From positions 1 to 35,477 of the IMG/VR virus record IMGVR_UViG_3300025647_000118: DNA of 35,477 nt. One strand, given 5' to 3'. The translations under genes and the position numbers were made by a program. Each line of letters begins with the position of its first letter. Position 1 is the first letter of the stretch. The notes below the pieces were generated by a model, which was not told the DNA's origin, did not search any database, and saw only the letters and a list, made by a program, of their open reading frames with translations. The stretch comes from a virus. This document shows, one piece after another, positions 63 to 25,969 of the stretch.

Positions 63-2696
63 CTAGAGGTCCCTTGGATCAACGCCGAGTGCACGCAGGC
101 GGTCTTCGACGGCGGAGCGCTCCGCACCACGTCGGAGCGCATTTCTGGCTTGGCTGAGAAGTCGGGTTGCAGCCTGTGGACTTGCTTTGGCCGCATCGGC
201 GTTTGCGGGTTTCCCCGTCATTCCTTCGGTTTCGGTTGAAACGGCTATGTACGCAGGCCACAGCGCGGGATTGTCATGTGCCATTCGCTCCAAACCAGAC
301 ACATGCCTCAACAGGGGCGCAATGGTCCGGTCTGTGCCCTCGCGAACCGCCGCACGAAGCTGCATATAGCGGACCATCCATTGCGTGTACGCTGGCCGCG
401 ACATCAAGATCGATGTGCCGAGCATCGACCCACCAATAGCAAGCGGCGTCACAAAATCGCCAGTCACGGCGGAACCGACAGCAGCAACACCCCCGCCAAT
501 GTTGATCGTATTGGTTCCTGACCTGGACGTGTTTGCCAACGCGTCGACGTTTGACAGCCGGTTGGCAATACGGAACAGGTCATCAATCGCCTGCCGATGT
601 TCTGGTGAAAACATCAGATCACGCGCCTCTGGACTCAGCTTGTTATAGCGAGTGACAAAGGAACTGGGGGACCACCCTACCTCCTGCACAACGCCTCGCG
701 CGGAATCAACCGGCCTGCCAAGTTCGCGGACAAGGACCGATGCAAACGATGCTCGATCCTCCGGGCGAAGCGGCGACATGGCAGCACGGACCATCTGCAT
801 GTTGCCGCGAGTCCCGTCAGTCGCGCGGTTGATGAGAGCTTGCGCTGCTGCCTGGGGATTCTCTGTGCCCATTACCCGCTCAAACCGCTCGATCGCGGTC
901 ATGCCGGACCGGTTGTATCTGTCTGCACGCTGGAATGCGCGCAATGCCTGTGCAGCCCTGTTTGCAACGTCTGATGCTATGTAATCCGGGTCAGCCGGAT
1001 TGAGCCGGGACCGGAGGAGAGCGCGGTTGGCGATATCTTGAACGCCGACCTCGATATCTCGAGAAACAGCTCCATAAAGGTTTCGGAGTTGCGACTGGCT
1101 GAGCGTCTGCTGTGCGGGGTTGAATTCCGACATTGCCCGACCAATTTCTGTTCGGATAGATCTTAGGTCGTCGAGCGAAAAGTGCGCATTGGGATTCCGA
1201 ATGCGGTTAGCCAGTGGACCATTCAGCGTGCCTTGCCCGGATATGTTGCTGGCCACCTGCCCATCGATTTGCCGAAGTGCCTGCCTCGTGCTGGTGGGTG
1301 ACAACCTACGCGTATTCACCCGGCCGTCGCTGCGCAGCATGGTGGGAACTTGCCGCCACGCATACTCGTAAAGAGCCTCCCGACGGGCGGCAAACGACGT
1401 CTGAGTCGCTGGCGTTTCGATCACTCGAGCCAACTCTGCGTCAGAAAGATCCGGTGCAGACCGTCTGGCTGTGTAGAGTTGATTTCGCGCCAGCGCGAGA
1501 TCGGGAACCTCCCGCATCGCCGTCTGGACCGCATTGTCCATCGATGCCCCGGCTTGCGTTTCCCGGACAATAATTGCCTGGCGCTCCTGCTGCCGGATTG
1601 CCTCGGCCTGCTGCAGCCTTCGAGCGGCAGCCGCACTCATGATGGTGGGTGGCTGAATCGGTTGGTACGGCTGGATGCCGAGACCTGTCAAACGCCCTGG
1701 CTCCAGTCGTTCAACCCCATCACTGGAAAACCTCTGCAGCCCACGCTGAACCGCGCGCCCCGCCTCTTCCGGCGTCGCTGTTGCGGAAATCTGACCTGCG
1801 GTCCGATCTACCGCAGCAGCCGCATCCTGCATTGTCTCATCAAGGTTGTTTCGCAGGGGTGCGCCGACGTATGGAGTTTCCGTAATCTGCTTGCCAACCG
1901 ATGCAACCGGGCCCTGATTGAACGCAGGGCCGAACGGACGGACATCCTGCCTGACAAAAGCTTCAGCATCAGCAGCGGCTTCAGTGGCCCGCCTTCGCGC
2001 AATAGTTGCTCCGGTCGTTGTGCCGATACCAGTGTTGCTTGGTGTCCTGTACGCCATTATGCCGGCTGGCGTTAGTCCACCTACCATCGCGCCAACCATC
2101 TGGCCTGTCGGCCCATAACCCATGTCCTCGGCCGCTTGCGCGCCAATTCCGCTGGAAGCCGCAGATGCAGCATCGAGTGCGAGTGTCTGCGCAGGCGCAG
2201 CCCGAACGGCATTTATCGCATCGCGGGCAATACCGCCAAGTGTCGTCGTTGCTGGACCGGCCGCCTGTGTTGCGCGCCCTGCAATACCAAGAACGGTACC
2301 GGCCGGCACAGCCGCCGCGCCAACAGCTTCGCCAGCTCTTTGCAGATACCGCCCGGCGGTCGTCGTCGGCTTCTTTGGATTGAGGTAGTATGACCAGACG
2401 GGCATATTTTGAATATCGGGCAACCCGTACCGGCCGCCAGACGCCGTCTCTACTGCCCAATCAAGCGCGCGGTAGGGGGCGGACACAACCTCAGCGAGAC
2501 CTTTGTTAAAACCACGCAACGGATCCGTTGCGACGTCGAGTGCCGTAGTGGGTTCAGCAGACGGAGCGCTGGTCTTTTTTGCGTCTGGCACATCGTCAAA
2601 CAGCCCGCCGCCTGCGGTCGTCGAAGGTGATGGTGGCGTGCTGGATGTGCGCTTTGCGCCGACGTTTGGAACGTCATCGAATAGGCCGCTGGCCAT
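63..2696 (-). CDS. Large internal virion / DNA-ejection protein (877 aa)
   Basis: This 877-residue, Ala- and Arg-rich, mostly helical protein sits at the end of the tail genes, where podoviruses encode proteins carried inside the capsid and ejected with the DNA. The N-terminus carries the motif GLFDDVP twice (about residues 4-10 and 31-37), separated by a Ser/Thr/Pro-rich linker; a related motif opens the next gene. Residues around 115-215 are Ala/Gly-rich and weakly hydrophobic, and a Gly-rich hydrophobic stretch near residues 750-785 could touch membrane. I see no enzyme motif. Its ATG immediately follows the end of the 862-aa gene, sharing base 2696. The function is inferred from position, size and composition rather than from a recognised fold. 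Confidence 0.65.
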   Translation of the reverse strand: MASGLFDDVPNVGAKRTSSTPPSPSTTAGGGLFDDVPDAKKTSAPSAEPTTALDVATDPLRGFNKGLAEVVSAPYRALDWAVETASGGRYGLPDIQNMPVWSYYLNPKKPTTTAGRYLQRAGEAVGAAAVPAGTVLGIAGRATQAAGPATTTLGGIARDAINAVRAAPAQTLALDAASAASSGIGAQAAEDMGYGPTGQMVGAMVGGLTPAGIMAYRTPSNTGIGTTTGATIARRRATEAAADAEAFVRQDVRPFGPAFNQGPVASVGKQITETPYVGAPLRNNLDETMQDAAAAVDRTAGQISATATPEEAGRAVQRGLQRFSSDGVERLEPGRLTGLGIQPYQPIQPPTIMSAAAARRLQQAEAIRQQERQAIIVRETQAGASMDNAVQTAMREVPDLALARNQLYTARRSAPDLSDAELARVIETPATQTSFAARREALYEYAWRQVPTMLRSDGRVNTRRLSPTSTRQALRQIDGQVASNISGQGTLNGPLANRIRNPNAHFSLDDLRSIRTEIGRAMSEFNPAQQTLSQSQLRNLYGAVSRDIEVGVQDIANRALLRSRLNPADPDYIASDVANRAAQALRAFQRADRYNRSGMTAIERFERVMGTENPQAAAQALINRATDGTRGNMQMVRAAMSPLRPEDRASFASVLVRELGRPVDSARGVVQEVGWSPSSFVTRYNKLSPEARDLMFSPEHRQAIDDLFRIANRLSNVDALANTSRSGTNTINIGGGVAAVGSAVTGDFVTPLAIGGSMLGTSILMSRPAYTQWMVRYMQLRAAVREGTDRTIAPLLRHVSGLERMAHDNPALWPAYIAVSTETEGMTGKPANADAAKASPQAATRLLSQARNALRRGAERSAVEDRLRALGVDPRDL

Positions 2697-5284
2697 CAGT
2701 TGGCCTCCAGTTCATAGCCCCATTGACGCAACTTGGCGCGGACGCCGGCCGGATCTTTTCCAGCCGCGATCGCCTTGCGCGCCTCGGAAATAGCTGTCGA
2801 CCGATCAGGCTTTGCCCCGCTTTGAGGTGTAAATCCAGCCCACGACTCAATGTCTCCGAGCGTAATACGCGTGGCACCCTTGTACCCAATAAGCGTACCG
2901 TTCTTTTCATAATACTCAGCAGCGGCCTTTTTGGCCGCCAGCCCCTTTTTCATTGCCTCCATAAGACGAGAAAGACGTTCGCCATTGTATTTTTCGTCCA
3001 GCGCTGGATTGTATGCGCGGGAAATCAAGGCCTCGCCTTCCTTCTGCGTGAATTGTGCACCAAGAACCAGCCGCAGATTTCGTTGTACGATCTCCTGCAC
3101 TTGCTCCGCTCGATCAGCAGCCTCAGGAAACAGAATCTTGTGCGACGATTGAGGTGTAACGGCCATAAATCCTCCGGTCAGATTCTTTTTACTTACCTCC
3201 TTGCCGCTGATCGGATCCTTGCCTGTCAACTCTCCAACGACACCAGATAGCTGCTTGATCCCCTTCTCTGCATCAGCAAACCCGCCACCAACAACGAATT
3301 CTGCATATTCCTTGCCAAACGCCGTATCGACGGCCTTTTGCGCTGGGGTTATTTGAGGAGTGGATGCTTTTGTTGCAGCGGCCTTGGCTTGCGCCTCAAG
3401 CAAGGCAATGCGGGATGGATTTGTCCTGATCTCGGCGTCTGCACGCGCTTCGGCCAATCGCGTATCCGCATCGATTTTCCTCTGCTGGTACGGGATCATA
3501 TTCAGGCTGTGTTGTGCTTGCGCGTCTCGTATGTCCTGCGCACGCTTCATAAGAGCGAGTTTTGCGTCCTCGATCTGCCGCTCGCGCATCGACTTCTGAT
3601 CTTCGCGCCAGCCTCTCTCGGCAAGGCCACCCGATTCGCCAGTAGCCTGGAATGTCCCGCCAACACCTGCATATTGCGGCGACGCACGCGACAGCATGTT
3701 CCAGCCAAAATTCCGCAAGGCACTTTTGCCCTCAGGTGTCCCAAACCATTGCATAGCGCCAGAAATACCACCGCTTGAGGATGGTGCCTCAACGGGTGGA
3801 GGTGTGGGAGCCACAATGCCGGGACCAGGGTTTGCAATAGGTGGAGGTGGCGGCATATCGCGGTACGGAACACCAGCAGTCGTCGCGGCGCGCTCCATAA
3901 CGCGAGGCTCGGTCATTGCTGGCGCTACAGATAGTCCAGGAGCTGACACGGGCCCTTGCCCGCGGCCCTGCTCAGCCGCCAACATGGTCATGAACGGCGA
4001 CAATCCAGCCCCACCCGTCGCCTCGTCAAATGGCATCTTAGGCTCTGTCGGGAACCCCGGAACCTCACCCCCCACAGCAAACCCCATGGCAGACGCAATA
4101 CCATTGCCGACGTTCGAAATCCCGTAGCGTAGATTGTTCCCGAAGCCGGCAAGGGGATTACCAGAATCGTAGGTGACCATGTTGGACCACCCGCCCGGCC
4201 CCGTGTCCGTCCGCATTGTTTGGCCGACATTCCCAAGACTTTTTCCTGCTTGGCGCCCCTGTTTGATGGCGCCCATCACGTCGGACAAATGATCGCTGAC
4301 AGTGGGAGACCGCGCCATGGAAATATCACCACCAGCATTGGATGGCCGGATGCCGCCAGTTGGCATGATTGGTTGCGGGATGTACCCACCAGCACTAATG
4401 CCAGGCACACGGCCACCGTCGGCAAGTCCGAACGAGCCCAATAGCGAAATCCCACCCAATGCCGCGTTCACATAATTGGGCTTGCCGCCGACCTCGTCTT
4501 GCGTCTTTGTGCCTGTGCTGTTGGTGGTTGATCCCATGTTTGGCGAAGCAGCACCCATAATGCCAGCCAGCCACTGCTGAGTCTGGAATGGATACGCCGA
4601 CGCGGCTGCTGCGTTCTGCGAGGCCGCATCAAGCCGCGCTTGGTCAAGCGCCTGCTGCATGCCACCCGACATCAGGAGGCCCTGCGTATCGGTGTAGGAC
4701 AGCGGCACAAGGTTTGCCTGGAGTCCCGATGCCTGCAGTGTGCGCGCCTTATCCTGCTGTGCCGCGCTCAAAGCCTGGCTGTAGCCCTGGCTTCGAAGCC
4801 CAGCGATCACCGGAGCCTGGACGCGGTTTTGCTGTTCTTGCGTCAATGCCTGGACAACTGCCTCGCGATCACCCCCAAGAGAGCCCGCCATGCGCGCCTT
4901 GCCGGTGACGTCCGAGATCTGGCGTGCATTCTGGACTCCGAAATCAGCCATCGTTGAATTGACGACTTCGTTCGTGTACGGGTCCATGTACGCTTGGATG
5001 CCGGCGGCCGTGACGGGTTGCGCACCCGACATCGCCAGATTGCTGGCATTGTTCAGGTAGGGCGCAGCAATGCCCGCATCTATGTTCGAAAACGCCTGGT
5101 ATTGCGGTGCCGTGAAGCCCGCGACCTGCTTGCCAGTATTCGGATCGTATGGCGCATAGGAGGTCTGCGTCGCTCGATCAAGCAGGCCGTAGTATTTGTC
5201 GAGAACAGGCTGCAAAGCGGTTGTGCTGCTTTGCTGTGTCTGCTGCGCCTGGACGACAGGCTTCTTGCCAAAGCAGCTTCCCAT
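2696..5284 (-). CDS. Internal virion / structural protein with N-terminal GGDREAV region (862 aa)
   Basis: The protein begins MGSCFGKK, a short Gly/Lys start seen on many phage proteins of this type. Residues 55-200 form a helical Gln/Ala-rich segment with an AYMDPYTNEVV stretch (about 98-108) and a GGDREAVVQ stretch (about 137-145), a combination I recognise from podovirus structural proteins of unknown mechanism. Gly/Pro-rich linkers occupy roughly residues 280-520, including PPPPP near 480. A charged helix, probably coiled coil, spans about 560-645. It lies between the acetyltransferase and the 877-aa protein, within the ejection module. The start is the first ATG, twelve bases after the acetyltransferase stop; only a weak GAG-type ribosome site precedes it. 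A virion role is likely and the exact role is unknown. Confidence 0.65.
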   Translation of the reverse strand: MGSCFGKKPVVQAQQTQQSSTTALQPVLDKYYGLLDRATQTSYAPYDPNTGKQVAGFTAPQYQAFSNIDAGIAAPYLNNASNLAMSGAQPVTAAGIQAYMDPYTNEVVNSTMADFGVQNARQISDVTGKARMAGSLGGDREAVVQALTQEQQNRVQAPVIAGLRSQGYSQALSAAQQDKARTLQASGLQANLVPLSYTDTQGLLMSGGMQQALDQARLDAASQNAAAASAYPFQTQQWLAGIMGAASPNMGSTTNSTGTKTQDEVGGKPNYVNAALGGISLLGSFGLADGGRVPGISAGGYIPQPIMPTGGIRPSNAGGDISMARSPTVSDHLSDVMGAIKQGRQAGKSLGNVGQTMRTDTGPGGWSNMVTYDSGNPLAGFGNNLRYGISNVGNGIASAMGFAVGGEVPGFPTEPKMPFDEATGGAGLSPFMTMLAAEQGRGQGPVSAPGLSVAPAMTEPRVMERAATTAGVPYRDMPPPPPIANPGPGIVAPTPPPVEAPSSSGGISGAMQWFGTPEGKSALRNFGWNMLSRASPQYAGVGGTFQATGESGGLAERGWREDQKSMRERQIEDAKLALMKRAQDIRDAQAQHSLNMIPYQQRKIDADTRLAEARADAEIRTNPSRIALLEAQAKAAATKASTPQITPAQKAVDTAFGKEYAEFVVGGGFADAEKGIKQLSGVVGELTGKDPISGKEVSKKNLTGGFMAVTPQSSHKILFPEAADRAEQVQEIVQRNLRLVLGAQFTQKEGEALISRAYNPALDEKYNGERLSRLMEAMKKGLAAKKAAAEYYEKNGTLIGYKGATRITLGDIESWAGFTPQSGAKPDRSTAISEARKAIAAGKDPAGVRAKLRQWGYELEAN

Positions 5285-5295
5285 GTCTCACGCTC

Positions 5296-5775
5296 TCATC
5301 GGCTAGGGTTGACATTGGCAAGAAAAAACGCGCCCGCTGGTGCTCCGAACTTTCGTTTATACAGGCCCAACTTGGCCTCAGTTCTGTTGTTTGACACAAC
5401 GCCAGTAAGTAAAGGTATTCCAATCTCTTCTGACATCTTCTTCGCAAAGTCTATCAGATCTTTGGCATTATTGGAACGTCTAAATTCCGGCAAGACAAAT
5501 GTCATGAAATCTTCGAGAACAACTTCATCGGTGTACCATGCCGCCTGGCATATCCGCAGACCGATAATGCCCTCGAGCGCTCCAGGCTCGCCGATGACAC
5601 CGATCAGGCCGCCTGTGCGCTCGAAATGAGTCATGACCATCTCGCGCACCTTGGTATGGCTCATGGAAAACAACCCGTTCTCTGTGTGCATCTCTTCGGC
5701 CAAGAACAGGATTTGATCGAAATCGCACGGCTCCGCAATCCGCACCCGTGACGGCGCGTCGGTCTGCTCTGTCAT
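5296..5775 (-). CDS. GNAT-family N-acetyltransferase
   Basis: The 159 residues fit the GNAT fold, which transfers acetyl from acetyl-CoA to an amine. The usual beta-alpha order is visible: an N-terminal RIAEPCDFDQILFLAEEM start, a central LIGVIG...GIIGL hairpin, then motif A as FVLPEFRRSNNAKDLIDFA (about residues 92-110). The pyrophosphate-binding signature R-x-x-G-x-G/A is degenerate here (RRSNNA, with Asn for the first Gly). The C-terminal part LGLYKRKFG matches the usual YxxxGF region. The gene sits between two large virion proteins, with AAGGA eleven bases before the ATG. The substrate is unknown; a virion or host protein target is possible. Acetyltransferases recur in this tail location in related phages. 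Confidence 0.8.
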   Translation of the reverse strand: MTEQTDAPSRVRIAEPCDFDQILFLAEEMHTENGLFSMSHTKVREMVMTHFERTGGLIGVIGEPGALEGIIGLRICQAAWYTDEVVLEDFMTFVLPEFRRSNNAKDLIDFAKKMSEEIGIPLLTGVVSNNRTEAKLGLYKRKFGAPAGAFFLANVNPSR

Positions 5776-5782
5776 GTGTCGG

Positions 5783-8407
5783 TTAGTCCTTCGCTGGTGG
5801 CGGCAATGACATCAAGGTGTCGATTGCCTCTTGCCTCATCCCCATGATCCAGGAGTCGATGGCCTCGTGTCCGGCCTGCATGTCACCATTCCCGACGGCT
5901 TCGACAACCTCTGGCGGGACTACGAATTCACCATCCGAAACCTGGACGGGGACATCAACCTCACCGCCATCCGCACGGCGACGCGTACGCATTCCATAGG
6001 GACCAGTCGAAAACATCTGCTCAAGCATCTTAAGGCCTGAGAGGGAATTACCTTGTCCCATGTGAGAGACGATATCGGCCGGGATAACGTGGCTCCCAGC
6101 TCGCAGGTACGTGGCGATCTTGTCGGCTCTGCCACCGGTCGGGCCAATGATGCCACCTGATGCCCGGTGTTGGACGCGGCCACCATCAGCATGCATCGTC
6201 GAATTCTCGCGCGTCATGCGGTGGAAGTCGCGAACACCCTTGTACCACTCTGGCGGTGGTGCCATTTCGACGCCGCCAGCCGCACGATTTGCAATGACCT
6301 CTGACGGCTCGCGCACAATTTGAAGGCCGGAGAGATCGGGCACAGATCCCGGTCGAACGGCTGATGCTGTAGCGCGCGCACCGCTATCTCCAATCTCTGC
6401 CGCCTGCTGCCTCAATGAATCGTAAGGCAGAGACCGCTCGGCAGCAGATCGAGACAGTGCAGCCGCCTTGTCCTTGGCTATCTCATCCGCAATTTTGGCT
6501 TTGAACACTGGATTGATCCCGCCGGATTGGTACATGGAATTTGTCCAAGCAGATGGGCCGCCTGGCGTTGCTTCCCTGCTAACCGTGTGACCTTTGCCAA
6601 CATCCCTTGACCAATACTCAGCGCCATCATCTATCGCATTCGCACGGCCTCGCGTGTTCCGCAGGAACCGCCCCCCATAGCGCCCAATAGCCCAAGGTAG
6701 AGTGGCAAGCACCCCGTCTGCTGCCGCACCCAAATAATTACCAACCGAGGCTTTCTTTGCCACATCTGCCCCGGCCGTTGCCATCCCGACGCCCGGCGTC
6801 ACGTCAGGCAAAGAGAGATAGGACCTCCCAATGCCAGACCCTGACCCAGTTAGTCCACCAACAAGTCTCCGATGTGCTTCGGGCACGATCTTGTCATCCG
6901 AGCCAAGGGCCCCAAGCAAAGCCCGTGCTGCGCGGTCCCGCCACGTCGGCTCATAAGCGCGAGCCTCCTCCGGTCGCCAGTCCGGCCGCCTGTCAAAATC
7001 ATCCGACGTCATGCCCGGATCTTCGACTGGACCACCACCGGCCCGCGCCAGACCAATCGCTCGCTCGGCTACTCCCCGCTGCTCCAGCACCCCATCAATC
7101 GGCTCCACGTCAATATCATGATCAGGCGGTGCGGACCGGAGCATAGTGTCAGCCTGGATGCCAACGGTCGACGGTGTTGCCATTGATGCCCGAACCTCAC
7201 GGCCCATTGGATCACGCTGGGTGATGGCAACGGGCGGTTCGCCTGACATCATGGATTCGGACGCAACATCGCCCTTGGATAACGGACCAAGCCCAAGAAC
7301 CTCGTTCTCGCGTCCTTCGCGCGACGCCTGGACAATGTCCTCGGCCGTCACTTGCAACGGGTCGAAGTGGAACACGCCACGGTCTGTGACGACACGCTCC
7401 AGCCCCGCCACAAGGGGCAGTTCTGGCGTCCCGCGCGGGAACATCACGGCTGGCTTTCGCCCGGCCGCAACCTCGCGCTGTTGTGCCTGCAGGGCCTCTG
7501 GCGATTCCGGTACATTCATCCCAGTGTCCGACATTGGTTCGCCAGGGATTCCACCCCCCATTGCACGTGCGATTTGCAAAGCGGATTGATAGGGCATAGC
7601 GGCCTCGGCGAGTTTGAGCCCGCCAACCGGTGAAGCACCGAGATGCGGGGATCCTGGCATGGGGTCGAAGTGCAATTCGGTTGACTGTGAAGATTGCGGC
7701 CTCATCAACTCCGCAACAGACCCAAGGCCACCCGCGATCGATTTGATTGATGGCACGCCAATGCCACCCGGTGCCTCTGGAGTTGTCTCTGGTGCAGCCT
7801 GAAGTGGTGATGTGCCCGGCGCGGACGAAGCGACAAACGGCTGGCTTGATGAAGCTGCCGATGCGACCTGCGTGCGCGGGGCAATTCCGCTTCCACCGTA
7901 ACGCTCATTTGGCGCAAGAAACCACTCGCCATTGACGTTGGTAAAGTCGCCAGCCGCTACGGCCTTTGTGGCCCATGACGGCACCAACACGCTCCCATGT
8001 CCGGGCACATCCATGCGGACCGCCGAACGCACGAGGTTTGGATTTTTGTCGTAGTACGCCTGCATGCCGGCCGGCGAGAAGAAGTGCGTCTGACCAGATC
8101 GCAAAGGCCCTTCACCGGCGGTGATCTTGTCGTACGCTTCGCCCCACTTTGCGACCGACTTTGGCGTGACCTCGCTCCACCGATGGCCGAGCGCAACCGG
8201 ATCGTAATGCCTCAGATGTCGGGATGGATCGCCACCCTCTGCCTGCAGTCGATTACGGAAGGCATGCCCAACCGCAATCGACCCCTCACCACGCTGCTCG
8301 AGCTGCATGATGGCCGCCGCATAGTCACGCTCACTCGGCTCACGCCCAAGCACGCCGCGGAGATAAGCTTGAAACGCAGGGACCCGTTGATCGCGCCATC
8401 CGGCCAT
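5783..8407 (-). CDS. Large virion protein with N-terminal SleB-like cell-wall hydrolase motif (874 aa)
   Basis: The first 60 residues resemble the Hydrolase_2 (SleB/CwlJ) family: YAAAIMQLEQRGEG at about 29-42, then AVGHAFRNRL at about 45-54. This corresponds to the family's EARGE...AVAxVxxNR signature, with the catalytic Glu at about 37. That suggests a virion-associated peptidoglycan hydrolase for DNA entry. The rest is long and low in complexity: Ser/Ala/Pro linkers to about 270, a helical middle, and a C-terminal part with VPVQVSDGEFVVPPEVVEA (about 819-837) and a final PPPAKD, a segment found at the end of other phage internal proteins. The ATG shares one base with the preceding stop (TAATG). 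The virion role is likely; the hydrolase domain is motif-based. Confidence 0.65.
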   Translation of the reverse strand: MAGWRDQRVPAFQAYLRGVLGREPSERDYAAAIMQLEQRGEGSIAVGHAFRNRLQAEGGDPSRHLRHYDPVALGHRWSEVTPKSVAKWGEAYDKITAGEGPLRSGQTHFFSPAGMQAYYDKNPNLVRSAVRMDVPGHGSVLVPSWATKAVAAGDFTNVNGEWFLAPNERYGGSGIAPRTQVASAASSSQPFVASSAPGTSPLQAAPETTPEAPGGIGVPSIKSIAGGLGSVAELMRPQSSQSTELHFDPMPGSPHLGASPVGGLKLAEAAMPYQSALQIARAMGGGIPGEPMSDTGMNVPESPEALQAQQREVAAGRKPAVMFPRGTPELPLVAGLERVVTDRGVFHFDPLQVTAEDIVQASREGRENEVLGLGPLSKGDVASESMMSGEPPVAITQRDPMGREVRASMATPSTVGIQADTMLRSAPPDHDIDVEPIDGVLEQRGVAERAIGLARAGGGPVEDPGMTSDDFDRRPDWRPEEARAYEPTWRDRAARALLGALGSDDKIVPEAHRRLVGGLTGSGSGIGRSYLSLPDVTPGVGMATAGADVAKKASVGNYLGAAADGVLATLPWAIGRYGGRFLRNTRGRANAIDDGAEYWSRDVGKGHTVSREATPGGPSAWTNSMYQSGGINPVFKAKIADEIAKDKAAALSRSAAERSLPYDSLRQQAAEIGDSGARATASAVRPGSVPDLSGLQIVREPSEVIANRAAGGVEMAPPPEWYKGVRDFHRMTRENSTMHADGGRVQHRASGGIIGPTGGRADKIATYLRAGSHVIPADIVSHMGQGNSLSGLKMLEQMFSTGPYGMRTRRRADGGEVDVPVQVSDGEFVVPPEVVEAVGNGDMQAGHEAIDSWIMGMRQEAIDTLMSLPPPAKD

Positions 8408-8643
8408 TAGCTTATTGCCGCTCTATCTGTGACCCGACGCCAGTTCGTGCCGTCAAAAAAAGCTGGCACTGCTCCACCCGTCTCATCCGTTACATAAATC
8501 ATCGCACCGATAGATGACGTAGTTGGTGCCGAAGATACGGTGTAGCTTGGCAGTGTCGGCACTGTTCCGGTCTTGCTTACGAGTTGTGACAGAATTTGAT
8601 TGAGGCCTTTGAAAACGGACAAAAACTCTGCTTCGCTGGGCAT
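8407..8643 (-). CDS. Small virion-associated protein (78 aa)
   Basis: This 78-residue protein has a helical N-terminal half (about residues 3-23) followed by a beta-rich half: IGAMIYVTDETGGAVPAFFDGTNWRRV (about 45-71, broken here only by description). The pattern YVTDExGGAVPAFFDG...WRRV is typical of small phage tail or fibre-associated modules. It is preceded by GGGAGG nine bases before the ATG and follows the tail-hub gene by two bases; its TAA overlaps the start of the 874-aa gene. A minor tail role is inferred from context. Confidence 0.7.
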   Translation of the reverse strand: MPSEAEFLSVFKGLNQILSQLVSKTGTVPTLPSYTVSSAPTTSSIGAMIYVTDETGGAVPAFFDGTNWRRVTDRAAIS

Positions 8644-8645
8644 CG

Positions 8646-10919
8646 TTAAACCCTCCCATCAGGTGCTGCGCGATACCTCATTCGTCCCATGCGCCACCAC
8701 GATGAAACGTCGTTTGATTCGATTTTGATGGAGACTCTGTGGCCGCGGACGCGCGGGGACAAATAGTTGGTATCTGTCGTGTACGGCATGGCGCCAGACG
8801 ACATCGATGCGCCAGTGAAGTCGTTTGTTGCTGTTACTGTGATTGCCATGTTAGCAAGCTCCGGTTGGCCGTACAGTCCATAGCGCATGTCAGGTCGAAT
8901 CTGATCTACGAACAAGCAATCCGTCCCGTCATTCAACAGAACCTCCCCCGATTGAACCCATGCGTTTATCGGCTGCCCATCGGCGTCGACGCCGCTCTCA
9001 TGACGGTAGACAATGCCTCCTGGTGCCGTTGCCAATGGATAATCTATGATCGACTGCCCTATTCCAGAAGATCGAGACAAGACGCCCTTGTCCCACACTA
9101 TTGCGTTGCCTTGCAGTGTCATCTTCACGTAGCGCGAGCATTCGCCCGTGCCATCATCCAGTGATGGATAAAAGAACCACACTTCATTGAACGAGCTGAC
9201 ACCCCATGCCCAGCATTTTGATTGAGCACTTGTGTCGAGGTCCTGAAAGACGGAATCCCACACCGTGCACGGCAAGGGCTGAACCCCGCCCGGACCCAGT
9301 GCAAAAAAATTCCTGTGCCCCATCCAATAGACTGTTGTGCCGAGTATCGCCTGTGCGTGTCGTCCGATTAAACCGCAGTTGGTTGCGATCTCGTTAAAAG
9401 TGAAAACCAGAGGTTGGCCGACGTACTGCATTGACCAGACTGCGACATCAGTCCAGATAAGCGCCTGATTTGGACCCTGAATACCACCACGTATCTCCGA
9501 GCCCCTAGGCAAACGAACAGATCCAACCTGATCGGTTGTGTCCAATGACCAATCCTCATAATTATCCTGATCAGACCACCGTATTAGAAGTGGATCCTGT
9601 CGTACTCCTATTGACGTCGTGCTTGATCTTGTCGTTGACCCGTAGGCCACAAGAATATTGGCCGGCTGCGCAATAAAGCAGCCCTTGTTATAGAGGGGCG
9701 CGTCAGAGCCCCCGAGCAGCCGCGCAGTGACAAGACCGGCCGTAGGAGACCATGCATAAAGAGCGCCGTCTTCCGGACAGGCTATCAAAGTCTGCTGCCA
9801 GGAGTCGAGACTCCAATCGGTAGCCGTTATCTTGTTTCCTGTTTGCGCAGATGGAATAACGCCAGTCCCGTAGTTCCCTGACCCGTAAGCGCCGATGCCG
9901 TACCCTGCACCGGGTGGGTTTGGCCCAAGAGTGACGTAATACTTAATTTCAGCTTCACCGGAATTCATCGCAGAAGTAGCGGACGAAGATGCCGCTGCGC
10001 TTGCAGATATAGTCAAGGTGCCAGAACCGGGAACCGTAAGGACTTCATAAGTTCCGGATATCGTCACTCCGCCAACAGAAGTTGACACATCAAAGGATAT
10101 GCTGTTCCCAACAGAAAGGCCGTGACCAGGGAAAACAACCGTAACAATCTCGGAGCCAGACGATGTCGTAAATTGAGGGACAATCCCGCCATAAACCGAC
10201 CCTCCAGTGGAGTATGCCGTATAACCAGTGCTGTTGACCCCAGACAGTTCGAATGTGTTTGCTGATGCGTTGGCCACTGTATAGATGCCGCCATTAAGCT
10301 CCGTCATCCCAGATACGCCATCGATGTAGACAAGGTCTCCATTCGATCTCCCGTGCGATGTTGCCGTTATCTCGCACGGGTTTGCCTGTGTCGCACCTGT
10401 TATAGATACGGTCGACACCGTGGCCGTGGCGTTCTGTGCCGCGGTGATCTGATATGTCCCGGTCCCTGTCGACTGAAGGACGCGATACGTGCCTTCAAGA
10501 ATTAGACCTCCAACCGATATCGGCGTGTTAAAGTAAATGAAATCGTAGTCAGTTACAGACCCAACATTGCTATCTGTGATGTTGACGACAGCAGACCCTG
10601 ACGTTGTCTCAATGTCAGGCGGCAGGTCGTAAGCTACGATCTGGGGAGTAATGTCGGAGAACACGCCGCCAGATATTACGCCGAGCACATCATCTCCACC
10701 AAGGCCAAGGTAAGTGACAGCCGTTGTTGACTGGAACTCCTTCATGTGTCGAATGCTCGTTGCAAGACTAAATGGATAATACTTATCCCACCCACCGATT
10801 TTTTCCGGTTCGCCTTCGTGAAACCTAATTAGACTGCTATCTGACCATCCCCCCTCATTGAGGGCTGGTGTCATTTGTGTGTTGATTCCAGGTCGAAACT
10901 TGATCGTTCCCATTGGCAT
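8646..10919 (-). CDS. Tail hub / nozzle-type protein, P22 gp10-like (757 aa)
   Basis: The N-terminus (IKFRPGINTQMTPALNEGGW...IRFHEGEPEKIGGW) and the repeated bladed strands suit the packaged-DNA stabilisation / tail-hub family exemplified by P22 gp10 and the T7 nozzle. Conserved-looking stretches include LLIRWSDQDNYEDW, GSEIRGGIQGPNQALIWTD and TNCGLIGRHA between about residues 460 and 550. An inserted Ser/Thr/Gly-rich part (about 100-330) contains repeated beta modules, one with ATSHGRSNGDLVYIDGVSG, of the kind called FCCH-like in phage annotations. The protein would form the tube below the portal adaptor. The start has AGAGG eight bases upstream. Family placement rests on my recognition of the pattern and gene order. 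Confidence 0.75.
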   Translation of the reverse strand: MPMGTIKFRPGINTQMTPALNEGGWSDSSLIRFHEGEPEKIGGWDKYYPFSLATSIRHMKEFQSTTAVTYLGLGGDDVLGVISGGVFSDITPQIVAYDLPPDIETTSGSAVVNITDSNVGSVTDYDFIYFNTPISVGGLILEGTYRVLQSTGTGTYQITAAQNATATVSTVSITGATQANPCEITATSHGRSNGDLVYIDGVSGMTELNGGIYTVANASANTFELSGVNSTGYTAYSTGGSVYGGIVPQFTTSSGSEIVTVVFPGHGLSVGNSISFDVSTSVGGVTISGTYEVLTVPGSGTLTISASAAASSSATSAMNSGEAEIKYYVTLGPNPPGAGYGIGAYGSGNYGTGVIPSAQTGNKITATDWSLDSWQQTLIACPEDGALYAWSPTAGLVTARLLGGSDAPLYNKGCFIAQPANILVAYGSTTRSSTTSIGVRQDPLLIRWSDQDNYEDWSLDTTDQVGSVRLPRGSEIRGGIQGPNQALIWTDVAVWSMQYVGQPLVFTFNEIATNCGLIGRHAQAILGTTVYWMGHRNFFALGPGGVQPLPCTVWDSVFQDLDTSAQSKCWAWGVSSFNEVWFFYPSLDDGTGECSRYVKMTLQGNAIVWDKGVLSRSSGIGQSIIDYPLATAPGGIVYRHESGVDADGQPINAWVQSGEVLLNDGTDCLFVDQIRPDMRYGLYGQPELANMAITVTATNDFTGASMSSGAMPYTTDTNYLSPRVRGHRVSIKIESNDVSSWWRMGRMRYRAAPDGRV

Positions 10920-10924
10920 AAAGC

Positions 10925-11629
10925 TTAGCCTCTTTGCGGTAGTGCAACAGGAGACAGGGCCTTACTCGTCCAAGACACAGACTGCCACCGTTTGCGGTGC
11001 TCCTCAATCGAGGACGATGCGAGAAGCGTCTGATACTGGGCCTCCCAACTCATAGCCATTTTGGGATCGTCAGATTGAGCCCCGAAATTACGCTGCCACC
11101 CAGAAATGAACACCATCGCGGCAGCGAGAAACAGGTCAGGAAGGTAGTTTGTTAGGTATGTTGTCGTTTGGGCATCGCTCAAAGCAACTGGGCGTATCTC
11201 ACCAATCACTTCAACGTCCCACGCAGAACCAGGCGCCGGGGCAACCGCGATTGACTGATCTGTAACCATAGCAAAGTATTCCGGCACAACGGACGACGCA
11301 GTAGCTGTTTCAGCCGGGTATGTCGCGTCGATAAACTCAAGACTAACTGGCGATAATTGAGCAATTCTAACACCACTCGACAGTAGGTTTATCCCCGTCA
11401 AGACAACAAACCGCCCATCCCCGCTTGGCAGTGTAAAGTTTCGACTATTTGCAGTAAGGCTGCTTCCAGTCGTACGCACTGTCGTTGTCAACAAATTGAG
11501 ATCTCTATATATGCGCTGCTCCGCGTAGTCGATCGCGCTGGGGAGAATGGCAACGTACCTCACGTCGGCTTCGTCTATAACCGCAAGCGCTGCGACACGA
11601 GACACAAAGCTGTCATAATCAAGAGCCAT
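10925..11629 (-). CDS. Connector/adaptor-like structural protein (234 aa)
   Basis: The N-terminus ALDYDSFVSRVAALAVI is followed by FVAILP-like YVAILPSAIDYAEQRIYRDL (helical, about residues 24-43 of the protein), then beta strands with NFTLPSGDGRFVVLTGINLL. This layout, a helical N-terminus, a beta domain and a C-terminal helix with WEAQYQTLL, is that of head-tail adaptor or tail-accessory proteins placed next to the tail hub in podoviruses. I chose the ATG at 11629, which overlaps the upstream stop as TGATG and has AGGTGG five bases before it, over an in-frame GTG nine bases upstream. The role is inferred. Confidence 0.65.
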   Translation of the reverse strand: MALDYDSFVSRVAALAVIDEADVRYVAILPSAIDYAEQRIYRDLNLLTTTVRTTGSSLTANSRNFTLPSGDGRFVVLTGINLLSSGVRIAQLSPVSLEFIDATYPAETATASSVVPEYFAMVTDQSIAVAPAPGSAWDVEVIGEIRPVALSDAQTTTYLTNYLPDLFLAAAMVFISGWQRNFGAQSDDPKMAMSWEAQYQTLLASSSIEEHRKRWQSVSWTSKALSPVALPQRG

Positions 11630-12063
11630 CAGGGCCACCTGCTGTCGTCAGCGTAGTCATCAGGTATCGGGACAATAGCCTCGATCTCGTTGGATTTGTT
11701 TCTTATCGCCTTTATGGCAACGGCATAAGCCTGCAGCGCAGCGGCTTCAGCTTGCTCGTCCGCCGACAATATGCCGCCAGTTGCGAGCTTGTTGTTCAGT
11801 TCATTCGCCCGCATATTTGCGTTCATCTGTTTAATCAGGCAACTAACAATATCGGCAACCCCCGTCATTGCAATAATACGACGCTGCGCCTCAGTCTTGA
11901 CATCTTCAATAGAGGGCCCACTGAGGGCAGCGACCTGTGCCGCGATCTCTGCATCGCTAGGGCGCGATTGCTGCTGGTCCAGCCAGACAAGCCCGTCAAC
12001 CGTATCGCCGTTTAATGACCATTGCGCTCCGGGACGCAGCGATTTTAGAGCTTCTACGATCAT
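11629..12063 (-). CDS. Tail-fibre partner or assembly protein (144 aa)
   Basis: The first 40 residues (LRPGAQWSLNGDTVDGLVWL, then DQQQSRPSDAEI) resemble XkdW-like and short tail-fibre accessory proteins, in which a Trp-containing start is followed by a PxxxEI helix. The remaining 100 residues are helical. The ATG overlaps the stop of the tail-fibre gene (ATGA), so the two are probably translated together; small genes right after a fibre often help it fold or attach. I see no catalytic motif. Assignment is by position and N-terminal pattern. Confidence 0.6.
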   Translation of the reverse strand: MIVEALKSLRPGAQWSLNGDTVDGLVWLDQQQSRPSDAEIAAQVAALSGPSIEDVKTEAQRRIIAMTGVADIVSCLIKQMNANMRANELNNKLATGGILSADEQAEAAALQAYAVAIKAIRNKSNEIEAIVPIPDDYADDSRWP

Positions 12064-14318
12064 CCCTGTATCTCCTCGACCAAGAGCTGACTAGCCAGGC
12101 GCGGCGAAAATCCGGCGTCGCTATCCAATATTGTCCGATTGAAATAGTACGTTCCGCCCTGCAGATAAAATTGCACTTTGTACGTTGTCGCGCTAGCAGA
12201 CTGCGGGAAATCAAGGTAAACCACCCCGTTGAAATTTACGCTTAAATTGTCTGTTGTGCGAAAGATAGTCGTTGTCGAAGGCGTCCTACTGCCGGCGGCG
12301 TCTCCAAGAACAAGTGCGGTGCTACCCCGAACGAGACGGGTGGCCGCCATGTTAGCGCCACCCGCGATGTTGTTCCAGCCGCCCGTAACTTTTACGAGAT
12401 TACACGCGGACGCCGGAGTGATCGACACGCTGAAATCTGTAATATCAGTATAAGCCGACGCCGTTGTAGATGTGAAAGTGTCAGTCTTGATGACCTGAGC
12501 CATATTGCCTGTTGTTTGTCCGGGCAGTGGTGTGCCAGGACCAAAAAGCTGCAACTTCGTAGGCGCCGCGTCCCAATTACCTGCCGCTGTAGCGAGGCCA
12601 GACGCGTAGTCGAAATACCCCAGCACACGGAACGCCTTGTTTGTTACAGCCGAACCCGTATAAATAACTTTCGTACTGTCGGCTGCGCCCGCTCCGCCCT
12701 CGGCGGTAGAGGATAACAACTGCGACTCATCCAGCGATTTTATTGATGTGCCGCCATTGCAGTTAACAACGCCCAACCGCGGCGTTCCCGCGTCGTTGAA
12801 CAGCAAAACCCACCCTCGAAAAGGTATGGATGTACCAGTCACCCCCAATGTAGAGCCGCTGCTTATTGTCAGAGATAGCGCGGCCTCAATCGACACCGTA
12901 TCGTAATCACCATCAGCAGCCGTCGAGGATCGGAACGTCACGCTGATAGGATCGCCGCTACTCGGATCAGTGCTACCATCCGCCACTTTAACGGCTATTG
13001 TCAGCGCGCTACTGCCGACCGATGCCGCGAGCGTTAAATTATTGATATATGACGCATTCCCACCGCCGCCGCTGCCGCCCGTGAAGCTGGAAAACAGCGC
13101 GTGCTTGAGATTGTCGCTATCGCTGGCATCGAGCAACAGAACCTTGTCACCCGCGGCTGGCGTTACGCCTGTTGTTGTTGCACCGCTAAGTGCCGCCGTA
13201 ACGTTGGCCTCGTCCGTAACATCTGCCCCAGCCTCGATCCCATCGAGCTTCGTTTCGTCGGCGATTAGGAAGCTGGCAGTCGTGTTGGCGAGGACGGACG
13301 AATACGCTTGAACGTCTGTGCCAATGACCGTTCCAATGGCCGTCCTGGCAGCCGCGGCGTCAGTAGCAGTAAGTACGGCCCGCCCAGTCGACGTTGAATC
13401 TGTGATGTCGGTAGATGCTATCGTAACGGCGCCTGTTCGACCGGCAACGGAGCTAACCCGATCTGTATAGTCCGCCTTATACCAGTTGCTGGCATACGTT
13501 GTCGTGGACGCGTTATCTGTGATGGCAATAATGCGATCACCGTCAGTGAATTCAACACTATCGACAGTCCCACCAACAGTGACAAGGTAGGATTCACCCG
13601 CCTGCGCCGTTCCTGAACCAGGGAATGTCCCTGCCGATGCATCCCATGTGCCAACAAGAACAACGGCCGCATCCAGCGCGTTGACGCGAGATTCTATTGC
13701 ATCAAGATCAACGCTCTGTGTTATGCTAATATAGCCAAGCTTTGTTTCTTGGGCCGTTGTGAACGAAGCCGTTGTTGCGGCAAGAACGGAGGAATATGCT
13801 TGGACGTCTGTGCCGATAGCCAACCCAAGAGCTGTCCGCGCCGCTGAAGCCGTTGATGACCCGGTGCCGCCCTTTGAAACTGAGACAATCGGCAGATCAT
13901 CATCAACGAGCGCCCTGTACGAAGGCGCCGCGTCAGCACCTGATGCCGGACCCGCAAGGACCGTGTTTGCGGATTGATCATCCGCGTTGTCGTCTACCCA
14001 CTCCGTATCATAATCGGAACCCGACGCCTTGGCCAATTTCTGGCCCGCCGAGCCACCCGCGGGGACGGTTCCGACACCAGTCAACGCCTCGTTTAATGTC
14101 GTGCTGTAGGGCTGTCCGTCTGAAATTTTATAGAGAGCGATCCGGTAGCCACTTGTTGGAACCGGGTTTCCGCCATTGTCAGGCAGAACGCCAATTGTCT
14201 TGAAAAGGTTTGTTAGTGAAAGTCGGTATGACACGTTAGACTTTGCAACTTCAGTCTCTTCGCTTCCGGTCAGCGCCACGGACAGCGCTTGCATGCCGGA
14301 AATCTTCGATGTTGCCAT
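12060..14318 (-). CDS. Tail fibre / receptor-binding protein (752 aa)
   Basis: A long Ser/Thr/Ala/Gly-rich beta protein. It has phage-fibre shaft units: VSKGGTGSSTASAARTALGL (about residues 147-166), followed by GTDVQAYSSVLA...ETKL, and a second copy with the sequence GTDVQAYSSVLANTT near 335-350, ending in ETKLDGIEAGADVTDEANV. These two units of about 50 residues are homologous. After a GGSGGGG hinge near residue 425 comes a different C-terminal part (about 430-752), which should carry the receptor-binding surface. The N-terminus (MATSKISGMQALSVALTGSE) is probably the virion-attachment part. The stop overlaps the partner gene. Host receptor unknown. Confidence 0.85.
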   Translation of the reverse strand: MATSKISGMQALSVALTGSEETEVAKSNVSYRLSLTNLFKTIGVLPDNGGNPVPTSGYRIALYKISDGQPYSTTLNEALTGVGTVPAGGSAGQKLAKASGSDYDTEWVDDNADDQSANTVLAGPASGADAAPSYRALVDDDLPIVSVSKGGTGSSTASAARTALGLAIGTDVQAYSSVLAATTASFTTAQETKLGYISITQSVDLDAIESRVNALDAAVVLVGTWDASAGTFPGSGTAQAGESYLVTVGGTVDSVEFTDGDRIIAITDNASTTTYASNWYKADYTDRVSSVAGRTGAVTIASTDITDSTSTGRAVLTATDAAAARTAIGTVIGTDVQAYSSVLANTTASFLIADETKLDGIEAGADVTDEANVTAALSGATTTGVTPAAGDKVLLLDASDSDNLKHALFSSFTGGSGGGGNASYINNLTLAASVGSSALTIAVKVADGSTDPSSGDPISVTFRSSTAADGDYDTVSIEAALSLTISSGSTLGVTGTSIPFRGWVLLFNDAGTPRLGVVNCNGGTSIKSLDESQLLSSTAEGGAGAADSTKVIYTGSAVTNKAFRVLGYFDYASGLATAAGNWDAAPTKLQLFGPGTPLPGQTTGNMAQVIKTDTFTSTTASAYTDITDFSVSITPASACNLVKVTGGWNNIAGGANMAATRLVRGSTALVLGDAAGSRTPSTTTIFRTTDNLSVNFNGVVYLDFPQSASATTYKVQFYLQGGTYYFNRTILDSDAGFSPRLASQLLVEEIQG

Positions 14319-14319
14319 G

Positions 14320-14682
14320 TTAAGACCCGTAGTCCTGATCTGCTGAGCTTTCTGTCACGCGATTCACGTCGGATTCGTCTATCCTGTCCGCACCATCTTC
14401 CGTCTCACGATAATCGACTTGATCCATCTCGTATGGCTCTGGTCGTGCGTCGATGACGGGTGGAGGGTCCGGCGGAAGCGTGATCGCCTTCAGAAACAAG
14501 GACGGCTCATCCATGCAGCGGTCACACACGCGAATACGCTTGTTGATCAACTCTGTGCCGGCCCATTGGTGCTGGTAGCCGAGGTCGCAGAGATTGTGAA
14601 GGAACCCACATCTGTCGCAGGCGCCAAAGGCGCTCGGGTTTGATGTGTCAACGCGCGCGCGGCCATGGAAGCGATAGCTCAT
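14320..14682 (-). CDS. Zinc-ribbon phage structural-module protein (120 aa)
   Basis: A compact protein with two CxxC pairs: FGACDRCGF (about residues 19-27) and RVCDRCMDEP (about 50-59), the right spacing for a zinc ribbon. The start (SYRFHGRARVDTSNP) and the middle (YQHQWAGTELINKRI, LPPDPPPVIDARPEP) match a conserved family of phage proteins of unknown function next to the tail adaptor. The C-terminal 30 residues are acidic. The ATG overlaps the adaptor stop (ATGA); I rejected an upstream in-frame start that would overlap the adaptor heavily and has no ribosome site. It may be a virion or assembly factor. Confidence 0.75.
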   Translation of the reverse strand: MSYRFHGRARVDTSNPSAFGACDRCGFLHNLCDLGYQHQWAGTELINKRIRVCDRCMDEPSLFLKAITLPPDPPPVIDARPEPYEMDQVDYRETEDGADRIDESDVNRVTESSADQDYGS

Positions 14683-15392
14683 CGGTAGTAGCCGCCGAGA
14701 GATGGAGATATGTAAATCGGAACATCTTCCGTATCTTGACCAGCGGCCGTTTGCCACGACCGCACAGCGCGTTCCGCAAGCGTCTGTGCGAACCCAGCGC
14801 CCAGCGCCGCCTTTGCTGCCTCCGGATATACCGCGCCCAACCGATCGGCCAATCCGTCAACAAAGGCCGTATTAAACCGATACGGGATCTCGACGTCATA
14901 CCCACCAGCAAGAACAGCATCCTCGGCTTGTCGTACGCAGCGGTATTTGAGAGTGTAGGTGTAGACGCTGTCAGGCGTCGGCCACAGCGTTATTTGAGGC
15001 GTTACCTGTCGATCGAACCAGAACGACGTTGGGTATCCCGTCGTCGCCTTGTTTGGGATGGCGTGGTATTCGACGGTTGAAAGGGCACCTAGCGGTCGAT
15101 CTGTCGTCGTTGTGCCTACAGTCGTCGAGATGTAAGCAATTTGAATTGCCACGACTTCGGGATCGAGCGTGTAGGTGGCGGTGCCGGCTGTGATGGCTTC
15201 GGTCTTCAGCGATGATAGCCATAGGTTCGGTTGCTTGTTGGCCCAGTCGCACAGCAGGAGGTTGGACTCGAACTCGGCGTCCTTCATGTGTTCTACGCCG
15301 ATGGCTGTCCGCCTGATGCCAATGCGAGCAAACGCAGCAAGGACGTGCCTCCCGAGGGTAGGAGAGAACCCGTATGTGCCTGACGTCGCCAT
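14679..15392 (-). CDS. Head-tail adaptor (connector) protein, P22 gp4-like (237 aa)
   Basis: This matches the head-completion/adaptor family that attaches under the portal in short-tailed phages: a helical N-terminus (SPTLGRHVLAAFARIGIRR), an EHMKDAEFESNLLLCDWANK helix (about residues 34-53), a strand pair with TATYTLDPEVV, and a C-terminal helical part (FVDGLADRLGAVYPEAAKAAL, then LAERAVRSW). The order adaptor then tail hub agrees with P22-like tails. It starts 13 bases after the coiled-coil gene and is translationally coupled to the zinc-ribbon gene through ATGA. Confidence 0.75.
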   Translation of the reverse strand: MATSGTYGFSPTLGRHVLAAFARIGIRRTAIGVEHMKDAEFESNLLLCDWANKQPNLWLSSLKTEAITAGTATYTLDPEVVAIQIAYISTTVGTTTTDRPLGALSTVEYHAIPNKATTGYPTSFWFDRQVTPQITLWPTPDSVYTYTLKYRCVRQAEDAVLAGGYDVEIPYRFNTAFVDGLADRLGAVYPEAAKAALGAGFAQTLAERAVRSWQTAAGQDTEDVPIYISPSLGGYYR

Positions 15393-15405
15393 GTTGGGCC
15401 TCCTA

Positions 15406-16041
15406 TTACAGCGCCGTCACGCTGCCGATTGCCGTTCGAAGCTGGTCCGCTGCCACCTTTGCCTTTGTCAGCAATGCATCAGCTTGTGCCTTTAGCTTTG
15501 CCGCATCTTCGTGTGCCTGTTGTGCCGTCTCCATCAGTTTGCGCGCCTCGGCTCGGTCGGCCTGTGCTGCAGCGCGTTCGGTCTCCGCTTTGGAGTGTTC
15601 TCCTTGTGCCGTCGCTAGCGCCGCCTCTTGTGCGCGCCGCATGTCTACCAATGCGGCATCGGCCCGTGCTCTGTCTGCTGCCATCTCGTCCGCTGCCTTG
15701 CTTTTGATGTCGGCCGCCAATGCTTGCGCCGCCGCCGCTAATCCATCGGCTGTCTCTCGAGCTGCCGCCAGTGCGTCGGCGGCTTCCTGCCGTGCCTGGT
15801 CCGCCGCACGCTGTGCGTCGCCCAGTATTTGACTCGCCTTCTGCTCGGCATCCAGAAGCCGCCTGTCGGCGTCTGCGCGCGCTTGAGCGATAGACTTTCC
15901 GAGGCGAAGCGATTTCAAGGACTCATCGGCGTCCGCCTTTGCTTGCATGATCTGAGCGAGGCGCCGCTCAAACGTGTCGCCGCCCTTGGCTGCGAGAGCG
16001 ATGTCCCTTTCGCCCTCAGTCGAGATTTTTGAAAGTGCCAT
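15406..16041 (-). CDS. Ala-rich coiled-coil protein (211 aa)
   Basis: Nearly all of this protein, from about residue 25 to 200, is a long Ala/Asp/Glu/Arg/Lys helix with heptad-like spacing and no Pro, that is, a predicted coiled coil. It lies between the 318-aa repeat protein and the adaptor. A linking, spacer or assembly role in the neck or head is possible, but no family is recognised. A GGTGA precedes the ATG. Composition-driven similarity to other coiled coils should not be read as homology. Confidence 0.7.
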   Translation of the reverse strand: MALSKISTEGERDIALAAKGGDTFERRLAQIMQAKADADESLKSLRLGKSIAQARADADRRLLDAEQKASQILGDAQRAADQARQEAADALAAARETADGLAAAAQALAADIKSKAADEMAADRARADAALVDMRRAQEAALATAQGEHSKAETERAAAQADRAEARKLMETAQQAHEDAAKLKAQADALLTKAKVAADQLRTAIGSVTAL

Positions 16042-16055
16042 GGGTGGTCACCGCC

Positions 16056-25098: not shown

Positions 25099-25344
25099 TT
25101 AATTCGGGGCGCCGGTCATGGCGTCCTCATCGCCAGGGGCTGCGCCGTTCTGTGTGCTGTGGACGAGCGAATGAACGCGCGCCGTGAGGTCCTGCATCCG
25201 GGTGAGATGCCTATGGAACGCAGCCCAGTCGGTCCGCACGCCGTTGACGGCGAGATGCGATGCGGCTTGGTTTGCATTGTGAATCAGGATGCCGACGATG
25301 TCGTCGGCTGTGATGTCCATGTTGTTGTCGGTCATATGGCTCAC
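25099..25344 (-). CDS. Small helical protein upstream of portal (81 aa)
   Basis: The core is helical: ADDIVGILIHNANQAASHLAV and WAAFHRHLTRMQDLTARVH. No family is recognised. The GTG at 25344 overlaps the upstream stop (GTGA), which favours it by coupling; an in-frame ATG at 25335 is the alternative and would give 78 residues. Neither has a strong ribosome site. It lies between the pyrophosphatase-domain gene and portal, so a packaging or portal accessory role is conceivable but unproven. Confidence 0.6.
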   Translation of the reverse strand: MSHMTDNNMDITADDIVGILIHNANQAASHLAVNGVRTDWAAFHRHLTRMQDLTARVHSLVHSTQNGAAPGDEDAMTGAPN

Positions 25345-25874: not shown

Positions 25875-25969
25875 GGCTCTATGTTCCGGTCTACTGTTGC
25901 TACGACGCACAGCGCCAGAGCGCAGCCAACGATCAGCATGATTGTGCCGGGGGAGATGAGGTCAAGCAC
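25871..25969 (-). CDS. Small single-span membrane peptide (32 aa)
   Basis: A GTG at 25969 opens a 32-codon frame with the sequence VLDLISPGTIMLIVGCALAL followed by CVVATVDRNIEP; residues about 8-25 are a clear membrane span. AAGGAA sits eleven bases upstream and the stop overlaps the pyrophosphatase-domain start as ATGA. It is too short for ORF callers. It could be a membrane anchor or a lysis-related peptide; expression is unproven. Confidence 0.5.
   Translation of the reverse strand: MLDLISPGTIMLIVGCALALCVVATVDRNIEP

Follow-up and report, generated by a model that had tools for sequence, protein, structure and literature searches.

The first 165 or so residues of an 874-aa phage protein probably form a strongly diverged lytic transglycosylase domain of the SleB/CwlJ type, and we read the protein as a virion-carried wall-opening enzyme encoded in the gene adjacent to the tail hub; its presence in the virion, its catalysis and its timing at entry we infer. 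The features computed directly are the motif, the predicted SleB fold, the conservation of the glutamate E37, the gene order, and the lack of any recognisable SLT or canonical SleB domain in the three records of this clade. The DNA analysed, here called the window, is the 35,477-base virus record IMGVR_UViG_3300025647_000118 (positions 1 to 35,477). SleB domains on long virion proteins are already known, and what is new here is a diverged copy that escapes the family models and lies in an unusual gene. The original prediction was largely right in kind: a long protein encoded in the tail/ejection block begins with a domain modelled as a SleB-type fold, the predicted catalytic Glu included.

Gene neighbourhood

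Matches to PHROGs outline a virion block of terminase, portal, major head protein, fibre, hub, the 874-aa gene, an acetyltransferase and a DNA ejection protein. The 874-aa gene is encoded inside the tail/ejection part of this block, which runs from the hub through a 78-aa ORF, the 874-aa gene and the acetyltransferase to the ejection protein. The genes and the parts of the 874-aa protein are as follows.

10925..11638, minus strand: probable adaptor protein, upstream of the hub (phrog_2941, 1.5e-9; its counterpart in phage MW202675 matches SU10_adaptor)
8646..10919, minus strand: tail hub / packaged-DNA stabilisation protein, upstream of the 874-aa gene (phrog_3287, 4e-57)
8407..8643, minus strand: 78-aa ORF between the hub and the 874-aa gene, conserved in record L019
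5783..8407, minus strand: 874-aa gene, ATG at 8407
7898..8407, minus strand: N-terminal SleB-like domain, aa 1-170, with the fold match at aa 22-165 (AF2 model and identities with relatives)
8249..8299, minus strand: motif EQRGEGSIAVGHAFRNR, aa 37-53, with E37 the predicted catalytic Glu (hhalign pairing; invariant in 3/3 sequences)
8072..8089, minus strand: THFFSP, aa 107-112, predicted counterpart of the (A)THYYxP substrate-site motif of SleB-type enzymes (hhalign; invariant in 3/3 sequences)
7073..7525, minus strand: second conserved, ordered region, aa 295-445 (identities and pLDDT)
5786..6184, minus strand: C-terminal domain, aa 742-874, common to the proteins encoded at this position in related phages (tblastn to MW202675)
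5296..5775, minus strand: acetyltransferase, downstream of the 874-aa gene, order conserved (phrog_1249, 1.5e-12)
2696..5284, minus strand: 862-aa ejection protein (phrog_4287, DNA ejection protein, 9.6e-8; the MW202675 counterpart carries SLT)
63..2696, minus strand: 877-aa protein, probable second ejection protein, with homologues in L019, L020 and Octadecabacter Antarctic DB virus 2 (gp20)

The 78-aa ORF and the 874-aa gene overlap, the stop of the former and the ATG of the latter sharing bases in TAATG. The hub is P22 gp10-like by the annotation of its relatives in a tblastn search of 64 phage records. The 877-aa protein has no family match, and its homologue gp20 sits beside the SleB protein of DB virus 2. 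The order adaptor, hub, hub-adjacent gene, acetyltransferase, ejection protein is the same in both relatives of the window and in MW202675, where the hub-adjacent protein has 193 aa and consists of the C-terminal domain only, without the SleB-like domain. The PHROG matches and this conserved order bear out the earlier placement of the gene in a tail/ejection module; the putative virion location of the 874-aa protein is read from gene order and C-terminal homology only.

Conservation of the N-terminal domain

A SleB-type motif does stand at the start of the protein, as originally noted: on the minus strand, EQRGEGSIAVGHAFRNRL occupies aa 37-54. A loose SleB-type pattern (E.RG[EQ], AV and NR, in that order) has a single match in the six frames of the whole window and arises in 4 of 200,000 shuffles of the 874-aa protein, a frequency to be read with the pattern having been defined post hoc, when the motif was already known.

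A scan of IMG/VR returned two relatives of the 874-aa protein, L001 (624 aa) and L002 (1020 aa). Scans of viral contigs with the protein or the domain recovered the same two contigs and no further members; the genome contigs scanned for the protein or domain and the phage records scanned for the N-terminal domain held no relatives. Conservation across these three sequences peaks in the N-terminal SleB-like domain, with 136/170 (80%) and 132/170 (78%) identities to the two relatives over aa 1-170. Identity falls to about 23% in the linker (aa 171-294), returns to 98/151 (65%) and 92/151 (61%) over aa 295-445, and stands at 63% and 60% over aa 742-874. Invariant in all three are E37, A45-V46, N52-R53 and THFFSPAGM (107-115). 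The proposed likeness of the motif to EARGE stands for its first Glu, E37, which aligns with the catalytic Glu of SleB and is invariant, and fails for its second, E41, which is replaced by P in one relative and A in the other, leaving E37 the sole candidate for a conserved catalytic Glu.

Family membership by sequence

Standard family models pass over this domain. Pfam Hydrolase_2 (PF07486, curated cut-off 27 bits) matches neither the 874-aa protein (no families at E<=10) nor its first 110 residues, nor any of the three domain sequences, and has no match in the three records formed by the window and its two relatives; the same search gave 69.6 bits for its positive control, gp19 of DB virus 2. 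PHROGs and PDB sequence searches with the N-terminal domain yielded nothing useful, and a single-sequence hmmsearch with a joint SleB profile reached 10.3 bits, which is not significant (one of 2523 scored shuffles reached 18.2).

Profile-to-profile comparison is more telling. With nine phage SleB-type enzymes (alignment A3) as the target, hhalign gave E 0.0025 at probability 12, a score that none of 500 column shuffles matched (reversed alignment 13.0 vs 23.8), and it pairs E37 with the Glu of EARGE that is invariant in all nine A3 sequences. Against a joint 15-sequence SleB profile, the comparison improved to E 7.9e-6 and probability 84 over aa 25-117, with a score of 38.1 vs a maximum of 23.6 in 300 column shuffles; such shuffles preserve composition only and are no control for other helical families. 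A comparison restricted to the six SleB domains taken from long phage proteins (E 9.6e-5, none of 500 shuffles as high) was set aside as support, because it aligned 19 columns and left E37 outside.

Predicted structure

AlphaFold, run on aa 1-174 with the three-sequence alignment, gave a model with pLDDT 78 and pTM 0.65 (five models, pLDDT 78 to 56). Foldseek returned 67 PDB matches, none at E<=0.001 (best 0.74), with SleB absent among the first 50 listed. Among predicted viral proteins (BFVD) it returned 154, again none at E<=0.001 (best 0.0098), and of the ten named proteins in the first 16 rows, nine are SleB or cell wall hydrolases. The PDB match to SleB emerges only on re-alignment of 421 of Foldseek's PDB candidates with VIA-align, which placed B. 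cereus SleB (4f55) at Z 9.7 (2.7 A over 110 residues, 14% identity) and B. anthracis SleB (4fet_B) at Z 9.2, the next chain scoring Z 3.7. The model of the whole protein gave the same answer over aa 22-165 (4fet_A Z 8.7, 4f55 Z 8.6), its next match reaching 5.2 in another region. The fit begins with model residue 23 on 4f55 residue 143, which would place E37 on residue 157 provided that the stretch is ungapped; Glu157 is given as the catalytic residue of B. cereus SleB in a passage of PMC11533991, and a passage of PMC12331253 states that SleB requires its catalytic Glu.

Two outcomes had been named in advance as telling against a SleB-type assignment, the lack of a Hydrolase_2 hit and a predicted fold different from SleB. 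By Pfam the first was found, so half of that case against it holds, while the predicted fold came out as that of SleB. The domain itself extends to about residue 165 and is thus longer than the 110 residues first proposed.

Beyond the domain, the whole-chain model is ordered at 1-167, at about 300-436 and in parts of 770-867, and has low confidence at 168-300 and 437-770. Between 301 and 440 the pLDDT is mostly 52-82 per 10-residue block, and Pfam gives no match over cut-off for aa 295-445. A match to 2phc (Z 5.2) was rejected as a clue to the function of the C-terminal domain, being within noise. Among viral proteins, the whole-protein model best matches one annotated as 'large polyvalent protein associated' (E 3e-12).

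Probable retention of catalysis

With the SleB/CwlJ catalytic domain (PF07486; 4f55, 4fet) the window's domain shares the predicted fold, the E..G..(A)V....NR pattern and, in part, an aromatic motif, THFFSP. It differs in lying below Pfam detection, in its length of about 165 residues and its additional helix at the N-terminus, in its fusion to a phage virion-type C-terminal domain, and in lacking two elements, QFS and DPTGGA. The E-x-x-G ... A-V ... N-R motif is present, with its first Glu at the catalytic position. The QFS motif that should follow it has no such string in aa 54-107; in the SleB sets its Q is invariant in A3, and its Q and F are invariant in A4. In the hhalign alignment THFFSP pairs with the end of (DPTGG)A-x-H-Y-Y-x-P, but RSGQ stands in place of DPTGGA.

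Alternatively, the SleB fold may have been kept and catalysis lost, the domain now binding peptidoglycan or acting as a structural component of the tail/ejection apparatus. E41, QFS and DPTGGA are not kept, the Pfam model is blind to the domain, and a fold does not reveal function. We nonetheless consider such a loss unlikely, for neither E37 nor the THFF motif varies among the three sequences, conservation along the protein is highest in this domain, and searches of the three records for a different entry transglycosylase found neither SLT (PF01464, 0/3) nor Hydrolase_2.

The SleB-like domain is joined by long disordered stretches to a C-terminal domain characteristic of a small tail/ejection-module protein in many related short-tailed phages. 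The 874-aa protein would travel in the virion and leave it with or before the ejection proteins, and E37, acting as catalytic acid, would cut the glycan strands of the peptidoglycan locally so that the ejection tube and DNA could pass. In this the domain may stand in for the SLT or canonical SleB domain that some related phages carry within the neighbouring ejection protein.

The C-terminal domain and the hub-adjacent gene

We searched IMG/VR with a hub profile and surveyed the best 80 of 595 loci. The three-sequence profile of the N-terminal domain matched none of these 80. A SleB profile matched two of them, both in long ejection-region ORFs, of 882 aa in L074 and 1515 aa in L070 (Pfam Hydrolase_2 46.9 and 35.7 bits, respectively). 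The C-terminal domain is far more widespread, with 34 of the best 80 loci having an ORF that matches it at E<=1e-9. These ORFs are usually of about 210 aa and without the SleB-like domain (median open frame 211.5 aa, including some truncated at the ends of contigs). In 27 of the 34 the start lies no more than 1.5 kb past the hub, and where a locus has an acetyltransferase, it lies within 600 bases after the C-terminal-domain ORF in 25 of 28. A start motif resembling MPLKxGKSQxxISxNISE is present in 23 of the 34 and absent from the window's protein and both its relatives.

Two similar motifs, GSHVIPADIVSHMGQGN and GEFVVPPEVVEAVGNGD, lie within the C-terminal domain. The 34 loci just described fall within L036-L115; the domain also occurs at L006 8103-8684, and the 'tape measure' protein of DSL-LC04 ends in a string similar to its motifs.

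At one locus, L045, the hub-adjacent protein (963 aa, 13718-16606, plus strand) carries an ADP-ribosyltransferase domain, ART-PolyVal (36.5 bits vs a cut-off of 31.2), before the shared C-terminal domain. One might then see the C-terminal domain as an address for packaging or ejection and the hub-adjacent gene as a docking slot for varied N-terminal cargo, with the wall-opening function hopping between genes and unrelated enzyme families, a possibility that we raise tentatively and with some doubt. The cargo would be a SleB-like enzyme here, an ADP-ribosyltransferase in L045, and nothing recognisable in most others.

Wall enzymes across related phages

Related phages place their recognisable wall enzymes elsewhere in the module. 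The MW202675 ejection protein (internal virion protein D) has an SLT transglycosylase (aa 601-694, 91 bits), and in L070 and DB virus 2 the ejection region encodes a canonical Hydrolase_2. Among records covering 44 of the 80 hub loci, SLT exceeds its cut-off in six, five of these in frames of 735-1233 aa, and Hydrolase_2 occurs in two; L070 has both, with Hydrolase_2 in its ejection ORF and SLT in a separate 241-aa frame. In another set, of 17 hub-bearing records, SLT is over cut-off in two and below it in two, Hydrolase_2 occurs in one, and the window's domain occurs in three, which are the profile's own sequences.

Taken with the 0/3 counts for SLT and Hydrolase_2 in this clade, such a distribution is consistent with the wall-opening role having moved, most likely, into the hub-adjacent gene. 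None of the 17 records has two wall enzymes and nine have none, and because of those nine, the many hub-bearing phages that have no recognised wall enzyme, and the many IMG/VR records that are fragments, the exclusive pattern is weak evidence, suggestive at most. Strict mutual exclusion was rejected, as many records have no wall enzyme and that of L070 has two.

A Peptidase_S74 chaperone domain is present in ejection-region proteins of L070 (6826-11370) and L006 (9188-12745), followed by Hydrolase_2 in the former and SLT in the latter, an apparent exchange of wall enzyme within the same protein.

Precedents and lysis enzymes

We examined 14 phage SleB contexts, chosen non-randomly, of which six are long proteins and eight are short and endolysin-like (about 120-210 aa). 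The long ones are those of Rhizobium phage RHph_TM34 (1115 aa, its neighbours being a large internal virion protein on one side and, on the other, the small protein that follows tail tubular protein B), Atu_ph03 (1191 aa), Stappia SI01 (1102 aa), Ruegeria V13 ('structural protein', 637 aa), DB virus 2 (gp19, 523 aa) and Atu_ph08 ('DarB-like', 4877 aa). Canonical SleB on long virion or ejection proteins of several phages, and PF07486 in injected polyvalent proteins as described in part of PMC5512222, mean that the arrangement was overstated when it was first called unusual.

A close parallel is gp19 of Octadecabacter Antarctic DB virus 2 (MW805364), likewise short-tailed, with a homologous hub and a wall-hydrolase domain fronting an ejection-region protein, but its Hydrolase_2 is canonical and its gene lies directly before the homologue of the 877-aa protein and not beside the hub. 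The alphaproteobacterial T7-like phages RHph_TM34, Atu_ph03 and Stappia SI01 also carry a SleB-type domain on a long ejection-module protein, but the domain is recognisable and the position gp15-like. The SLT domains of ejection proteins (T7 gp16; internal virion protein D of MW202675) have the same supposed role, opening peptidoglycan at entry, and belong to another family and a different gene of the module. According to a passage of PMC8954989, T7 gp16 has an N-terminal transglycosylase that P22-like gp16 lacks, and wall enzymes have been swapped between ejection proteins. Polyvalent proteins, long phage products presumed to be injected, likewise bear PF07486 but have several enzyme domains, whereas the window's protein has one that is recognisable; the relevant passage of PMC5512222, which calls PF07486 SpoIID-like, reports it in few cases and proposes help at injection. 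Within literature on SleB/PF07486 in phages, represented mostly by titles, we recognised no account of the present case, nor in passages of PMC11091411, PMC7344957 and PMC8310338.

Most of the 60 phage SleB-type proteins listed are named endolysin, cell wall hydrolase or similar, and the tested part of the window's ORFs yielded no further recognisable lysis enzyme, so that one could take the 874-aa protein for a late endolysin and not an entry enzyme. We regard this as improbable, since the protein is long and multi-domain, has a C-terminal domain typical of the hub-adjacent position and is encoded by a gene embedded between tail and ejection genes, while the eight short SleB-type proteins have only about 120-210 aa. 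An accidental likeness, a helical domain with a chance EQRGE..AV..NR string, is very improbable indeed: single sequences give no significant match and Foldseek against the PDB was negative, but in two models only two SleB entries exceed Z 8, nine of the ten named BFVD proteins are SleB or cell wall hydrolases, and the profile comparison lies far beyond the shuffles.

Reading the domain as a diverged entry enzyme suggests that SleB-type domains can drift below standard profile models and yet retain the fold and catalytic Glu, and because of such drift the entry enzymes of phages seemingly without one may simply go unrecognised. It would also offer a concrete case of an entry enzyme placed in different genes of one module and varying in kind, SLT in one relative's ejection protein, canonical SleB in others and diverged SleB here.

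Elsewhere in the window, 25341-25910 (minus strand) encodes a stand-alone 189-aa inorganic pyrophosphatase-like protein (PF18823 InPase, 171 bits) between the large terminase and the portal, a domain otherwise described in large polyvalent phage proteins, and an N-6 DNA methylase-like sequence (PF02384, 45.7 bits) lies near the record end at 34787-35377 (minus strand).
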